Below are positions 9,662-31,061 of a DNA stretch of 64,000 bases, one piece after another. The notes under the pieces are model-generated. The model was not told where the DNA came from. It was given only the letters and a program-made list of their open reading frames with translations, and made no database searches. This DNA comes from Peredibacter starrii (lineage in GTDB: Bacteria; Bdellovibrionota; Bacteriovoracia; Bacteriovoracales; Bacteriovoracaceae): assembly GCF_034259205.1 (NCBI RefSeq), contig NZ_CP139487.1, forward strand, positions 3,162,001-3,226,000. The letters run 5' to 3'. The position numbers were made by a program, and so were the translations under genes. Positions within the stretch are counted from its first letter, which is position 1. Each line of letters starts with the position of its first letter.

Positions 9662-10651
9662 ATGGAAATCAAAAAGAATTTGAGCCATGCGGAAGAAAAG
9701 GAGCAAAGTGAGCGTGACTTCTACGATCACAACCTTAGTGACCTTTCTGAACTCAACCGAGTTCTCTTCACCACTATTGAAACCTTAGAAAAGAGTTCAA
9801 TCCCCTATGCCATTATTGGTGGTGTGGCCGTAAAAAGCCTGGGTAGACCTCGAGTCACTCATGACATTGATCTTTTCGTAAGACCTGACGATGCAGAAAA
9901 GGTTCTTGAGGTCCTGGAGGCCAAAGGCTTCACCACTCAAAAGCGAGATCCTTTTTGGCTCTTTAAAGCGTGGCAAGATGAGATTCTGGTGGATGTGATT
10001 TTTAAGTCCAGTGGAGATATTTATTTTGATGAAGAAGTACGGGCCCACGTAAGACGCGTTCCATATTTAGGAAGTTACGTGAATGCCATTAGTCCTGAGG
10101 ATTTTCTTGTCATCAAAGCGGCCGCCCATCAGGAACACAACCCTCATCATTGGCATGATGCCCTCGCTGTACTGAAACAAGGAAATCTCGATTGGGATTA
10201 TCTCCTAAAGCGTGCCAAGCATGCTCCACGAAGAATTCTCGCCCTTTTGATTTACGGCCAGTCTAATGACATTGCGGTTCCAAATGAAGTCATCCAAAAG
10301 CTCTACCGCGGAGTTTTCGAATCACCTGTATATATGCCGGAGTCCATAGTCTATCCATATCGGCACGATCTTGCTCACATGAGTGCCACCTCTGAAGAAG
10401 GTACTGAGTCCCCTATATACGTGAAAGGTAAAATTATGGAGGCGCTTACTACAGATGAAAGAATTGCTGAGCATGACGTAAAAGTCGTGGTCTCAGATAA
10501 AACCATCGTGGCCAAGGGTGAGGTCTTCACCGAAGAACAAAAAGATGCTGTGAATGAAGTGATTCATGAAATTGCTCCAAGTTACGAATGCAAAAATTTG
10601 GTCAACGTCAGAATTCTTCATGCACCCGAAGGAAGTGAGGCGATCAAATGA
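9662..10651 (+). CDS. Nucleotidyltransferase domain fused to a BON-like domain
   Basis: Residues about 35-110 form a minimal nucleotidyltransferase: 'YAIIGGVAVKSLGRPRVTHD' with the catalytic D-x-D (DIDLFV) and a further acidic residue in ILVDVIF. This pattern is common in AbiEii-like and MNT-like proteins. After a helical middle with 'HQEHNPHHWHDAL', the C-terminal 75 residues (starting near VKGKIMEALTTDERI) look like a BON domain, with the pattern 'VKVVVSDKTIVAKGEVFTEE'. The next gene, a phosphoesterase, overlaps it by four bases (ATGA). No antitoxin-like partner is visible. Substrate and role are unknown. Confidence 0.75.
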   Translation: MEIKKNLSHAEEKEQSERDFYDHNLSDLSELNRVLFTTIETLEKSSIPYAIIGGVAVKSLGRPRVTHDIDLFVRPDDAEKVLEVLEAKGFTTQKRDPFWLFKAWQDEILVDVIFKSSGDIYFDEEVRAHVRRVPYLGSYVNAISPEDFLVIKAAAHQEHNPHHWHDALAVLKQGNLDWDYLLKRAKHAPRRILALLIYGQSNDIAVPNEVIQKLYRGVFESPVYMPESIVYPYRHDLAHMSATSEEGTESPIYVKGKIMEALTTDERIAEHDVKVVVSDKTIVAKGEVFTEEQKDAVNEVIHEIAPSYECKNLVNVRILHAPEGSEAIK

Positions 10652-11418
10652 TCAGAATAGCTGCTGCCGGAGATGTTCACTTTGACCGGAAGTCACACAA
10701 TCGTCTGGCCCAACATTTCACGGGTCTCAATGAAAAGGCCGATGTCTTTCTTCTCGCGGGCGATCTCACACAAACCGGTCATCCGGAAGAGATGAAGGTC
10801 CTGGCCGAAGATTTAAAGAAATGTCCCATACCTATCGTGGCAGTCCTTGGAAATCATGACTATCATGTGGACCAGGTCGAAACCGTATTGAGTATTTTAA
10901 AAGACGCAGGAGTTACTGTTCTTGAAGGAAACTCTGTCACTCTCAATATCGGCGGTTATACAGTCGGAATTGCCGGGGCCAAGGGATTCGGTGGGGGCTT
11001 TGTTGGAGCGTGTGGTTCAGATTTTGGAGAGCCTGAGATGAAGGCCTTCATGAGACATTCAAAAAATCATGCTCGAACCTTAGAGAACACCATTAAGGAA
11101 ATGGAGACAGATTATAAAATTGTTCTTCTCCACTACTCACCAACGGCCCAAACCTTAGTGGGAGAGAAAAAAGAAATTTACCCATTTCTTGGTTGTTACT
11201 ATCTTGCTGAGGCCATCGATTACGGGAAGGCCGATATCGCTTTTCATGGTCATGCTCATGGAGGAGTTGAGAAAGGAGAAACTCCAGGTGGAGTTCCGGT
11301 GAGAAATGTGGCCCAACCGGTTATCCGTCACGCCTTTAATATCTATACGCTGGAAAAGAACATTGAACTCATCGTTTCTGAGAAGAAACACATGAGTTTC
11401 AATCCTGCCATGTCATAA
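10648..11418 (+). CDS. Calcineurin-like metallophosphoesterase
   Basis: This 256-residue protein carries the complete dimetal phosphoesterase motif series: AAGDVHFD (D-x-H), 'LLAGDLTQTG' (G-D), 'AVLGNHDYH' (G-N-H-D), 'ILLHYSP'-like HY and 'AFHGHAHGG' (G-H-x-H). There is no signal peptide, so it is cytoplasmic. Family members cleave phosphomono- or diesters, including cyclic nucleotides and nucleotidylated products. The ATGA overlap with the nucleotidyltransferase suggests the pair adds and removes a nucleotide or phosphate group on a shared target (inference). Confidence 0.9.
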   Translation: MIRIAAAGDVHFDRKSHNRLAQHFTGLNEKADVFLLAGDLTQTGHPEEMKVLAEDLKKCPIPIVAVLGNHDYHVDQVETVLSILKDAGVTVLEGNSVTLNIGGYTVGIAGAKGFGGGFVGACGSDFGEPEMKAFMRHSKNHARTLENTIKEMETDYKIVLLHYSPTAQTLVGEKKEIYPFLGCYYLAEAIDYGKADIAFHGHAHGGVEKGETPGGVPVRNVAQPVIRHAFNIYTLEKNIELIVSEKKHMSFNPAMS

Positions 11419-16009: not shown

Positions 16010-17107
16010 GTGTTCGTGCATCACAGTTATGATATTGAGATGCAAGCGCGAGAATATCTCAACAAACTCAGAAGCTTTCCAATTTACAAATATCTTCTCA
16101 CGCTGATGATTGTTTCATTCACAGCGCTAGTTCAACACTTACTCTGGCCACTATTAGAACCCGCCCCTTTTGTATTATTCTTTCCGGCTGTTTTATTTTG
16201 CTGCTTCTATGGGAACGGGACCTTTTCAATAATTTTATCGGCCATATTTTCACAATTCTTTTTTGTTCCACCTTACGATGCCATTCGACTCGTCTGGCCC
16301 AATGATCATTTCAGATTATTGTGTTTTTGTCTTGCGGCCATGCTGATTGAAAAGGTGGCAAAGAAACAGATTAAGGCCAAAAAAGAAGTTGAATATGTTC
16401 TGGAGCAACTCCTTGAAGAAAAATCGGCCAGGGAAAATTTTGTTTCGGCACTCTCTCATGATCTCCAAACTCCTCTGACCGCCATCCGCCTTTCGACTCA
16501 ATTACTCGAGAGAAAGCCCGAAGACCTCGCTAAAAACCGCGAGAGAATCATTCATAATGTCACTCGAATCGAAAAGATGGTGCAAGATATTCTCGACGCG
16601 AATAAACTTCGTGCCGGAGTTCCCCTACCACTAGAGGTCACAGAATTTAATCTGATTGATTGTATTCAGAATGTTGCCAGTGAAATGAACCTCATTCATC
16701 ACAATCGTATTGTATTATCTGCTCCCCAAAAAATCATGGGCTTCTGGAGTTTGGACGCCGTGAGGAGGATTGCCGAAAACCTCTGCACCAATGCCATTAA
16801 ATATGGTGAGGAGAATAAGCCTGTATCAATCGTAGTGAAAGAATTGGACGCAAAAGTCGAAATCGAAGTCCACAATGAAGGACAACCAATTCCATCCAAT
16901 GAGCAGGATTATTTATTCAATCTTTATAAGCGTGCCCTCTCCGCCAAAAAAAGTGGCAAGAAAGGATGGGGTCTTGGTCTAACTTTGGTAAAAGGTTTCG
17001 CCACATCCATGGGTGGAGATGTGAGAGTAAAAAGTCTCCAAGGCTTTGGGACGAGCTTTATCGTGACACTTCCAAAAGATGTGAGATCCAAAATTCAAGC
17101 TGACTAA
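16010..17107 (+). CDS. Orphan sensor histidine kinase with DUF4118 (KdpD-like) membrane domain
   Basis: A 365-residue protein. Residues about 25-115 form the compact multi-helix DUF4118 membrane module found in KdpD ('PFVLFFPAVLFCCFYGNGTF' and 'FVPPYDAIRLV'). A short coiled coil and a HisKA domain ('FVSALSHDLQTPLTAIRLS', His near 147) come next, then an ATPase domain (LCTNAIKYG, 'KGWGLGLTLVKGFATSMGG'). The first codon used is GTG; an ATG ten codons on is an equal alternative, and neither has a strong ribosome site. No response regulator is adjacent. The stop interlocks with that of the convergent gene. The sensed signal is unknown. Confidence 0.9.
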   Translation: MFVHHSYDIEMQAREYLNKLRSFPIYKYLLTLMIVSFTALVQHLLWPLLEPAPFVLFFPAVLFCCFYGNGTFSIILSAIFSQFFFVPPYDAIRLVWPNDHFRLLCFCLAAMLIEKVAKKQIKAKKEVEYVLEQLLEEKSARENFVSALSHDLQTPLTAIRLSTQLLERKPEDLAKNRERIIHNVTRIEKMVQDILDANKLRAGVPLPLEVTEFNLIDCIQNVASEMNLIHHNRIVLSAPQKIMGFWSLDAVRRIAENLCTNAIKYGEENKPVSIVVKELDAKVEIEVHNEGQPIPSNEQDYLFNLYKRALSAKKSGKKGWGLGLTLVKGFATSMGGDVRVKSLQGFGTSFIVTLPKDVRSKIQAD

Positions 17108-17931
17108 GAAAGAAGTCCTTCCGGAATTGAGTCTTCACTTAAACAAACCGAAAGCAATGAAGCTGTGCTGTACTTGAAGCCCTTATAAACAATCTGAGGC
17201 CTGTCACCAGCAATGGAAGTTCCCATGATGAAAATCAGAGGCATAAGCCCCGCCGAAGTTGGGTTGGCAAAATCAGAGTGAGGAGCGGCCTTTCTGTAGT
17301 CCAGAATATTTTCAATGTCCGCAGACATTAGTTTTTCTTCAAGCCATTGATTAAATTCCTTGCTCTTCGGATGAATATCTTCTCCGCGAGCGTGCCAGAC
17401 AAGCTTACCGGTATTAAGAGCGGCGGCCCCACTTCCTAAAACCAGAATCCCCTGCTCTCTCAGTGACGATAAAGCATGCCCCAATTTCAAAAGCATTCTT
17501 GGATCATCAATCATCGGAATCGAAATTTGAACAACTGGAATATCTGCTTCCGGCCTGATCAATCGTAGCGGCATCCAAACACCATGATCAAAACCATAGT
17601 GCTCATTATAGGTCGTCTCAAAGTTCTGCTTTTCTAAAAGTTCTGCCACAATCGCTTCCAGCTCAAATGAAACTGGCGGCTCGTAAGTCATCTCGTACAG
17701 TTCCTGCTGAAAACCTTGGAAGTTATACTGAATCGAAGACTGGGCCATGGTCGTGATCTGCACTGGTCCCGGTGTTGTCCATTGTGAAGAAACGCAAACT
17801 ATTCCCTTCAGAGAACTTCCCAAATAGCGTCCAAAATTCACCAACGAAGTGTTGTAAGGATCATCCTGCAGCGCTAAAGGGGGCAATTCGTAACTCACAA
17901 ATAAACTGGGAATAGCTTTCATAACCCTCAT
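17104..17931 (-). CDS. DODA/LigB-family extradiol dioxygenase homologue lacking the metal ligands
   Basis: Over its full 275 residues the protein follows the YgiD/DODA class of extradiol dioxygenases, including 'FQGFQQELYEMTYEPPVS', 'YGFDHGVWMPLRLIRPEADI' and the C-terminal LMPLIFIMG region. Yet each position where the family has a metal-binding histidine is changed. The HGSP motif reads SYELP, the SAHW motif reads SSQW, SGNxVHN reads SGAAALN, and PTPEHxLPL reads PTSAGLMPL. It therefore probably does not bind the usual iron or zinc and may be a pseudoenzyme with a binding role. A second ATG three codons in, with GAGGGTT before it, is an alternative start. It is convergent with the orphan kinase. 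Confidence 0.85.
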   Translation of the reverse strand: MRVMKAIPSLFVSYELPPLALQDDPYNTSLVNFGRYLGSSLKGIVCVSSQWTTPGPVQITTMAQSSIQYNFQGFQQELYEMTYEPPVSFELEAIVAELLEKQNFETTYNEHYGFDHGVWMPLRLIRPEADIPVVQISIPMIDDPRMLLKLGHALSSLREQGILVLGSGAAALNTGKLVWHARGEDIHPKSKEFNQWLEEKLMSADIENILDYRKAAPHSDFANPTSAGLMPLIFIMGTSIAGDRPQIVYKGFKYSTASLLSVCLSEDSIPEGLLS

Positions 17932-17976
17932 TATACCATTATTTTATTTAGTTAACTAATATTAATGAGAGGAAGT

Positions 17977-18006
17977 TTGACAGAAGTTCTTCCGATTAAC
18001 TATTGT
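17977..18006 (+). promoter_or_regulatory. Sigma-70-type promoter of the exported nuclease gene
   Basis: A perfect TTGACA -35 is followed after 18 bases by TATTGT (four of six matches to TATAAT). It ends 33 bases before the ATG, which leaves a short leader with a purine-rich ribosome site (AAGGAC). Confidence 0.55.
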
Positions 18007-18039
18007 GTTGCCTCAACACATTTTAATTAAGGACTGAAG

Positions 18040-18519
18040 ATGAAAATCCTCTTTCTCGGTTTACTCCTCACCACAGGTCTATTTGCCGGTGTAATCTACA
18101 AAGCTGATTTTCCAATGGGTCCGGACGTTTCTATCACTCCAGGTTCTCTTTGCTCAAATCCAGATGCTTACCGTTACCCTGAACACATCCCTTATTGTAA
18201 CCGCAACGTTAGCGGTGATCTAAAAGACGATGTATTCCGCGAATACCGCGATCTTGGCTACCGTCTTGATCCAAAACAACGTAAGCAATATAAGATCGAT
18301 CACTTGATCCCTCTTTGCGCTGGCGGAAGCAATCGTTCAGATAATCTATGGCCTCAACACGAGTCGATCTACGCTCTAACAGATCCTCTTGAACCACTAG
18401 CATGTGACAAACTTAAAGCCGGTGTAATTAAGCAAGCTGAGCTTGTTGAGCTTATTCGCCAAGCAAAGTTTGATACAAGACTTGTTCCTAAAGTCATGCA
18501 GTATCTAAGAAGTTTATAA
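18040..18519 (+). CDS. Exported HNH endonuclease
   Basis: A 159-residue protein with a signal peptide (residues 1-16, ending LFAG). The mature protein has the HNH/His-Me core 'KIDHLIPLCAGGSNRSDNLW' (Asp87-His88, with the Asn residues at the second and third positions), followed by 'KLKAGVIKQAEL', typical of small secreted HNH nucleases. Three or more cysteines in the N-terminal part could form disulphides. It should cut DNA outside the cytoplasm, for defence, nutrient use or breakdown of prey DNA (inference from the likely lifestyle). It has its own promoter and terminator. Confidence 0.9.
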   Translation: MKILFLGLLLTTGLFAGVIYKADFPMGPDVSITPGSLCSNPDAYRYPEHIPYCNRNVSGDLKDDVFREYRDLGYRLDPKQRKQYKIDHLIPLCAGGSNRSDNLWPQHESIYALTDPLEPLACDKLKAGVIKQAELVELIRQAKFDTRLVPKVMQYLRSL

Positions 18520-28803: not shown

Positions 28804-29775
28804 TCACTCTTTTTCAAAGTAATAAACGCAAAACAAATTCTTAGAGTCCTTCCAGCATTTTCTAAGTACCAGTCCCGCATGAGCACAAAGCTCAGCGAAT
28901 TCATCCTCAGAATATTTATATGAGTTTTCAGTGTGAATGGTTTCACCTTCATTGAAGCGGAAAACCGTGCGATTGATTCGTACCAGTTGAGGGACCTTAC
29001 TCTTAAGATGCATCTCGACTCGGCCCATATCTTCGTTATAGAAGGCCTCGTGTTCAAAATTATTCAGATCAAAGGACGCACCTACTTCACGGTTGAGACG
29101 TCTTAAAAGATTCATATTAAATTCGGCAGTGACACCTTCCGAATCATCATAGGCCCGTTTCAAAGTTGCACTGTCTTTTTTTAGATCGGCCCCAATTAAA
29201 AAGCCACCACCAGTTGAGAGCATCTCACCGTACTGAGTGAGAAAATCAATTGCCTCTTCAGGGGAAAGATTTCCAATGGTTGATCCCGGGAAGAAAATGA
29301 CCTTCTTACCGTTTTTCATGCCCACCGTAATGGGAAGTTGTAACATTTGGGTGAAATCTGCACAGACAGGAGTAATATTGAGATCAGGAAACTCTTCAAT
29401 CAATTCACTGGTCATGCGAAGAAGAATTTCTCTTTCTATTTCGATGGGAACAAATCCAGATGGGTCTTGAAGTTCTTTTAAAAGATAGCGGACTTTTTCT
29501 CCTGCCCCGCTTCCCGGTTCAATGATGAGGGCACCAGGTCCGATCATCTCTGCCATTTCACCCGCATAGGTCTGTAAAATTTCTTTCTCAGCACGAGTCG
29601 GATAATAATCGCGAAGATCGCAGATCTTCTCAAAGATCTCTGATCCTGCCTTATCATAAAGAAATTTCGGGGGAATGCTCTTCTGATGCTTAGACAGTCC
29701 AACCAGAACTTCAGAAAGAAGCGTACTACTTTGAGGGGCAAGGTCCATGTAAGAGGAATCAAATTCTGTCTTCAT
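28804..29775 (-). CDS. egtD: L-histidine N-alpha-methyltransferase
   Basis: The start used overlaps the egtB stop as ATGA and gives 323 residues, normal for the family. The sequence shows 'PPKFLYDKAGSEIFEKICDL', 'YYPTRAEKEIL', the SAM-binding 'LIIEPGSGAGEKVRYLL' and 'KVIFFPGSTIGNLSPEEA', all diagnostic of EgtD. It trimethylates histidine to hercynine, the first step of ergothioneine synthesis. With EgtB just upstream, the core of the pathway is complete. An upstream ATG exists but would overlap egtB further. Confidence 0.95.
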   Translation of the reverse strand: MKTEFDSSYMDLAPQSSTLLSEVLVGLSKHQKSIPPKFLYDKAGSEIFEKICDLRDYYPTRAEKEILQTYAGEMAEMIGPGALIIEPGSGAGEKVRYLLKELQDPSGFVPIEIEREILLRMTSELIEEFPDLNITPVCADFTQMLQLPITVGMKNGKKVIFFPGSTIGNLSPEEAIDFLTQYGEMLSTGGGFLIGADLKKDSATLKRAYDDSEGVTAEFNMNLLRRLNREVGASFDLNNFEHEAFYNEDMGRVEMHLKSKVPQLVRINRTVFRFNEGETIHTENSYKYSEDEFAELCAHAGLVLRKCWKDSKNLFCVYYFEKE

Positions 29776-31061
29776 GCTAAATCCTTTGCAAGTCGTATTC
29801 CTGAATACTGCCAACGCATATGAGGGTAATAGAAGTTTCGATAAGTCACCCGATAGTGAGACCTCGGTGTGATCGAACTACCTCCACGAAGAACGAACTG
29901 ATTACACATAAACTTTTCATTATATTCGGCAAGACCGTGCTGAAATTTCTCATAACGAGGATAAGGAAGATATGCACTCTGAGTCCATTCCCAGACCGAA
30001 CCATGAATCTGAGAATACAATTCATGATCATCACGTGATGGCTCGGGCTCAAAGTATCCATCTTCTAGAAACGTACATTCACTCGGTTCTGATCTGGCGG
30101 CGACTTCCCATTCAAATTCTGTCGGAAGCCTGCATCCTTTCCAGTGAGCAAAGGCCATGGCCTCATAGAAACTCACGTGCACAACTGGCGCGGCAAGATC
30201 CAAAGGCATCATTCCACCTAAAGTAAATGACCACCAGTTTTGCCCATCTCTTTCCCAATATAAAGGTGCTGACCACTTCTCTCTTTCTTTAACGTCCCAA
30301 CCGTCGGACAACCACAGGAGAGGATTATCGTAACCACCGTCTTCAATAAAACTCAAAAACTCATCGTTTGTGACCAAATGAGAGGAAAGCATACAACTTT
30401 CAATCCACTGATTATGGAGGTCCTTCTCATTATCAAAAGCGAACTCATGGGTGTTTCGATCCACTCCGATTTTCGCAAGCCCTGAGGCCAGATTATGCCA
30501 TTTCACATCAAAGGACTCATATGGCCCATGTGAATGATCTGGATGATACCTGGGCCTGATCGGATTCTCATAAAAGTTTCGTTTAATATCCATCAGGAGA
30601 AGTTCCTGATGTTGCTGCTCATGCTGAATTCCGAGTTCCAGACACTCTTTAATCTCTTTAAACTTCTCATCTGAAAGTCTCATCACTTCCATCATCACTT
30701 CTTTCGTGATGGCCCGGCGATATTCCTGAACTTCATGAACGGTAGGTCTCGATAAGACCCCACGCTTGACCTTAGGCAGGTAATAGCCAAGAGATTTATA
30801 ATAAGAATTAAACAGGAAATGAAATTCGTTTCGAAATGGCTCATACTGAGGATCAATTTTCTTCAACACGAAGTTTTCAAAAAACCAGGTGGTATGAGCA
30901 AGATGCCATTTAGGTGGACTTGTATCATCAGTAACAGAGATCACAAAATCCTCATGGGTCAGCGGAAGACATAAGTCTTCGGTCGCCTTTCTCACGGCCT
31001 CAAAACGACGAACCATTGCCTCACGTTCTGAAAACCTTTCCTGACTTCTCAAAAGATCCAT
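29772..31061 (-). CDS. egtB: Ergothioneine biosynthesis sulfoxide synthase
   Basis: A 429-residue non-haem iron enzyme. The N-terminal DinB-like part has 'KWHLAHTTWFFE' and the HX3HXE iron motif (HEQQHQE, near 145). The C-terminal FGE-sulfatase-like domain has 'FYEAMAFAHWKGCRLPTEFE' and 'QIHGSVWEWTQSAY' followed by VLRGGSSITP. It joins hercynine to cysteine or gamma-glutamylcysteine with oxygen. No C-terminal methyltransferase is fused, so it is EgtB rather than OvoA. egtA, egtC and egtE are absent from this window. Confidence 0.95.
   Translation of the reverse strand: MDLLRSQERFSEREAMVRRFEAVRKATEDLCLPLTHEDFVISVTDDTSPPKWHLAHTTWFFENFVLKKIDPQYEPFRNEFHFLFNSYYKSLGYYLPKVKRGVLSRPTVHEVQEYRRAITKEVMMEVMRLSDEKFKEIKECLELGIQHEQQHQELLLMDIKRNFYENPIRPRYHPDHSHGPYESFDVKWHNLASGLAKIGVDRNTHEFAFDNEKDLHNQWIESCMLSSHLVTNDEFLSFIEDGGYDNPLLWLSDGWDVKEREKWSAPLYWERDGQNWWSFTLGGMMPLDLAAPVVHVSFYEAMAFAHWKGCRLPTEFEWEVAARSEPSECTFLEDGYFEPEPSRDDHELYSQIHGSVWEWTQSAYLPYPRYEKFQHGLAEYNEKFMCNQFVLRGGSSITPRSHYRVTYRNFYYPHMRWQYSGIRLAKDLA

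Follow-up and report, generated by a model that had tools for sequence, protein, structure and literature searches.

We found that the 64,000-nucleotide stretch of DNA analyzed here (the window) encodes a homologue of the LigB-type extradiol dioxygenases in which none of the three metal ligands and only one of the two catalytic histidines is retained. The iron site is the defining feature of LigB-type extradiol dioxygenases; the protein described here belongs to a free-standing, maintained lineage without one. Taken together, the results make it reasonably probable that the protein is a maintained, metal-free pseudoenzyme restricted to a single clade, perhaps acting as a stand-alone binder of a small molecule.

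The open reading frame starts with ATG and runs without interruption (Table 1). A Pfam profile search matched the protein to LigB (PF02900, E=1.1e-20). The closest NCBIfam entry was PRK10628 (E=4.4e-41), i.e., the YgiD/DODA branch of LigB, although the score of 140.9 bits did not reach the equivalog cut-off of this entry (233 bits). Sequence searches of the PDB retrieved Beta vulgaris DODA (8in2, E=7e-33) and Escherichia coli YgiD (2pw6, E=9e-29). The match to the YgiD/DODA branch is significant over the full length, which places the protein within it. An AlphaFold model built from five sequences (pLDDT 67.5, pTM 0.73) superseded an earlier model from three sequences (pLDDT 51.6). This model superimposed on 8IN2 over 256 residues (Z 27.1, 2.6 A), corresponding to a full-length LigB fold, and on E. 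coli YgiD with a Z of 23.6; the 3vsh/8ihg family was among the matches of the structure searches, which included Foldseek. Confidence was low in the pocket loops 169-182 and 251-268, where L172 and the substrate residues of the C-terminal part are located, and a metal site rebuilt from other residues is conceivable. Of the checks that the initial annotation had proposed, the alignment with YgiD and DODA proteins showed the metal-ligand positions replaced, and the structure prediction gave a full fold.

Table 1. Features of the window discussed in the text
Feature	Position	Strand	Basis or remark
YgiD/DODA-type LigB homologue without ligands, 275 aa	17104..17931	-	family searches, predicted fold
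Tyr14 (TAC), replaces metal ligand His15 of 8IN2	17890..17892	-	alignments
Gln50 (CAA), replaces metal ligand His53	17782..17784	-	alignments
His116, kept, equivalent to catalytic His119	17584..17586	-	alignments
Leu172 (CTT), replaces catalytic His175	17416..17418	-	alignments
Gly228 (GGG), replaces metal ligand His229	17248..17250	-	alignments
DUF4118 histidine kinase, convergent, 4-base overlap with the LigB gene	16010..17107	+	domain search, genome comparison; linkage not conserved
HNH-like small protein, divergent neighbor	18040..18519	+	apparent signal peptide, weak HNH-nuclease match
Calcineurin-like metallophosphoesterase	10648..11418	+	orthologue directly convergent to the LigB gene in three sister genomes

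In the crystal structure 8IN2, iron is coordinated by His15, His53, and His229, while His119 and His175 touch the catechol hydroxyls and form the catalytic pair; changing either of the latter to alanine (H119A or H175A) causes a considerable loss of activity (PMC11926856). The motifs of the window protein at the corresponding sites are SYELP, SSQW, GFDHGVW, SGAAALN, and PTSAGLMPL. Reading the open reading frame confirmed the description in the initial annotation, according to which GFDHGVW is kept and the other four stand in place of the standard motifs. The accompanying claim that every metal ligand is replaced also held, as H15/H53/H229 of 8IN2 align with Y14/Q50/G228. The histidine retained in GFDHGVW (H116) is not a ligand. 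Moreover, Tyr14 is followed by Glu15 at a position where the homologues have an invariant glycine. As no metal ligand is left and the second catalytic histidine (H175) is lost, neither the metal site nor the catalytic pair of a DODA enzyme is complete.

All five active-site histidines were present in each of the 53 aligned homologues from outside the clade, which were drawn from the same genome, genus, family, and phylum and from Rhizobiaceae. At the 28 positions that are at least 98% invariant in the homologues, the window protein alters 4/5 histidines and 5/23 other residues (one-sided Fisher p=0.026, descriptive given the small sample). Motif misalignment or chance was ruled out, as pairwise and multiple alignments agree at all five positions. 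Thus, the conserved catalytic motifs of the family are missing, as is characteristic of a pseudoenzyme. Because the three iron ligands and the equivalent of H175 are replaced, the protein cannot work as the known iron-dependent extradiol dioxygenases do, and it is very likely that it no longer functions as an extradiol dioxygenase. An annotation as "DOPA dioxygenase" based on similarity would be incorrect for this gene.

We searched for orthologues in three overlapping genome sets, covering the genus (26 genomes), the family (129), and the phylum (369). Orthologues were detected in three genomes only (G002, G008, and G011), all of the same genus and 54 to 59% identical to the window protein; the next relatives beyond the four carriers share about 40% identity or less. 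At the positions of H15/H53/H119/H175/H229, the window protein reads Y/Q/H/L/G, G008 reads H/Q/H/F/T, G011 reads H/H/H/F/S, and G002 reads H/H/H/F/T. H175 and H229 are therefore missing in all four clade members, while H15 is missing in the window species only. H53 is missing in the window species and in G008, which are not sisters, and G011, the sister of G008, retains it; H53 was probably lost twice. As judged from these alignments, the loss across the clade is stepwise and not simultaneous, and no member has a complete metal site.

These states modify the initial annotation, which described a pseudoenzyme that had lost all sets of ligands at once. The pseudoenzyme part stands, with an intact fold and no complete site anywhere in the clade, but simultaneity does not, given the graded ligand states of the orthologues. 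A look for the same substitutions in orthologues had been proposed as a check: the loss of H175 and H229 is common to all three, whereas H15 is retained in three and H53 in two. Likewise, orthologues keeping the standard ligands had been named as counterevidence; those detected retain one or two of the three ligands, never all. In the LigB-fold protein MEMO1, replacing a single ligand, as in C244S or H49A, is enough to abolish the binding of iron (PMC11081632). Since such single-ligand mutants lose iron, the orthologues that retain H15 and H53 (G002 and G011, with two histidine ligands left) probably have little or no affinity for iron. The living intermediates with two, one, or no iron ligands form a natural series on the order in which a metal site is shed and on what the LigB fold can do after its loss.

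Maximum-likelihood analysis of 57 proteins placed those of the four carriers in a single clade (support 100/100). The stem of this clade measured 1.47 changes per site, compared with 0.07 to 0.41 for its tips. The closest kin were not the canonical paralogues of the same genome; they were canonical proteins of another family in the phylum (L139 and L140, in G354 and G355), with about 40% identity and all five histidines present. We used gyrB as the species marker, as rpoB was unusable in most genomes. The carriers all belonged to one group of ten genomes, moderately supported (85/86), in which they were interleaved with non-carriers; this suggests one gain followed by two losses. The lineage would thus have a single origin before the four species of the genus split. 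H229 and H175 would have gone first, on the long, fast stem branch; H53 and H15 were lost afterwards in some descendants, presumably when the metal no longer mattered. Two scans of viral contigs retrieved no relatives, and a third retrieved two canonical ones. A match in Mucilaginibacter (L006) was discarded as false because it covered a short stretch only.

The four reading frames are uninterrupted, which rules out a broken gene. Among the carriers, dN ranged from 0.10 to 0.38, well below dS, which is saturated and hence gives no measure of the strength of selection. As the frames are intact and protein change is moderate at saturated synonymous sites, we conclude that the protein has been maintained over evolution. 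The protein could alternatively be a relic that became inactive in the ancestor and is now drifting toward loss, with the window species most advanced. The graded loss of ligands, with two further ones gone from the window species, would fit such a course, as would the patchy occurrence of the gene, apparently lost from sister species, and the small size of the later substitutions (H to Y and H to Q). However, drift to loss is hard to reconcile with four intact frames at saturated synonymous sites, a mean column identity of 77% inside the clade, and the retention of structural invariants, and we regard this alternative as improbable. A tblastn search next to the HNH-like gene in non-carriers detected no remnants of a LigB gene. 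Selection may be relaxed in the window species. A maintained, non-catalytic protein remains the likely reading.

The clade has newly fixed residues at 27 positions, R126, E184, K189, R213, and K214 among them, and such residues point to a new constraint. It is conceivable, if doubtful, that the clade represents a metal-free enzyme or a dedicated small-molecule sensor in which these five residues form a new functional site. A new enzyme would use the DODA pocket for another reaction, either by iron-free catalysis or with a metal on migrated residues (H116 with H180 and E184). Within the clade, conservation is strong for H116 and the run YGFDHGVWMPLRLIRPEAD, and H180, E184, and D211 are invariant in all four members, E184 and D211 being rare elsewhere. 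Migrated residues are a recognized pitfall (PMC10211241), and a metal-free subclass of ribonucleotide reductase with lost ligands has been described (PMC11846895). Nevertheless, H180 also occurs in the closest canonical kin, which have a normal site, and so does not by itself indicate a new ligand; in addition, the positions beside the old ligands (172 and 228) are variable in the clade. We consider a new enzyme unlikely, if somewhat less so than a relic. In the favored reading, the gene encodes a stable, soluble, non-catalytic protein whose former substrate pocket, with H116 in place and the new charged residues, may bind a small molecule without turnover, perhaps an aromatic or anionic one. 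Small-molecule binding as the specific role of the window protein is our tentative guess. The aromatic ligand and sensor function suggested in the initial annotation are likewise guesses, and no result favors any specific sensor partner.

Heteromeric precedent exists in the LigB fold. The alpha subunit of 2-aminophenol 1,6-dioxygenase is a LigB-fold chain without a metal site, complexed with an active beta subunit, and the 3vsh/8ihg family appeared among the structure matches. The window protein could similarly pair, as a subunit without catalytic activity, with a canonical LigB paralogue, and its own genome encodes two of these (L001 and L002), with five histidines each. Neither paralogue is operon-adjacent to the ligand-less gene. 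Moreover, no further PF02900 protein was found in G002, G008, and G011 (genome completeness 81 to 92%, so that a gene may have been missed). Since no other LigB protein was found there, a partner-subunit role is disfavored in these three sister genomes, and pairing with a paralogue seems very unlikely. A stand-alone binding or regulatory protein would agree better with these genomes than a chain paired with an active dioxygenase. One of the canonical paralogues (L001:1423-2217) lies about 0.6 to 1.4 kb before base 1 of the window and about 18 kb from the ligand-less gene; it adjoins and overlaps a quinone-oxidoreductase-like gene.

No neighboring gene at the locus points to a ligand or pathway. 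In G002, G008, and G011, the convergent neighbor of the LigB gene is the metallophosphoesterase, preceded by a nucleotidyltransferase. Because both have counterparts at 9662-11418 in the window, we consider the locus to be the same (syntenic) in the sister genomes. The conserved order is nucleotidyltransferase, metallophosphoesterase, LigB, and HNH-like gene, occupying 9662-11418 and 17104-18519 in the window. In the window, the syntenic pairs are separated by extra genes, namely, an esterase, a response regulator, and two histidine kinases; the syntenic genes are followed there by isocitrate lyase, malate synthase, and efflux genes. The convergent position of the DUF4118 kinase, pointed out in the initial annotation, is correct, but there is no evolutionary linkage to the LigB gene. 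The kinase is missing from the other three carriers and is present in G003, G009, G012, and G018, all without the ligand-less LigB gene. In G003, G009, and G012, the kinase and the HNH-like gene are direct neighbors, not separated by a LigB gene. This distribution rules out a functional tie between the LigB gene and the kinase.

The HNH-like gene adjoins the LigB gene in all four carriers, yet it occurs in 24/26 genomes of the genus, also where LigB is absent; a functional tie was ruled out on these grounds. In a tree of the HNH-like proteins, the four carriers grouped weakly (58/43). The HNH-like protein carries the motif DHLIPLCAGGSN, its Pfam matches are all below threshold, and three copies occur in its own genome; it possibly represents an uncatalogued nuclease family. 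The divergent LigB/HNH promoter region contains a perfect 12-base palindrome, TTAGTTAACTAA, at 17948-17959; the orthologous intergenic regions of the sister genomes do not conserve it. Elsewhere in the window (28804-31061), two adjacent genes resemble, by eye, an EgtD-type methyltransferase and an EgtB-type enzyme of an ergothioneine-like pathway. An EgtB-like gene adjoins the HNH gene in G011.

A limited literature search returned no account of a lineage in the DODA branch that lacks the ligands and stands alone. The window protein resembles YgiD and plant DODA (BvDOD, 8IN2) in its full-length homology, its fold, the GFDHGxW motif with His119, and most structural invariants, but differs from them in the replacement of the three iron ligands and His175. 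In addition, Thr17 of BvDOD, which is needed for L-DOPA, is a leucine in the window protein. The relatives in G354 and G355 share with it the SGxAxxN motif and the WH surroundings; unlike the window protein, they keep the five active-site histidines. Non-catalytic LigB-fold proteins are already known, namely, MEMO1 and the alpha subunit of 2-aminophenol 1,6-dioxygenase. The alpha subunit works together with beta, whereas three sister genomes of the clade described here yielded no other LigB protein. MEMO1 shares the LigB fold and showed no detected dioxygenase activity on the substrates tried, but it binds iron or copper via H49, H81, and C244 (PMC11081632), and it is distant from the window protein, with 7% identity over the structural match.
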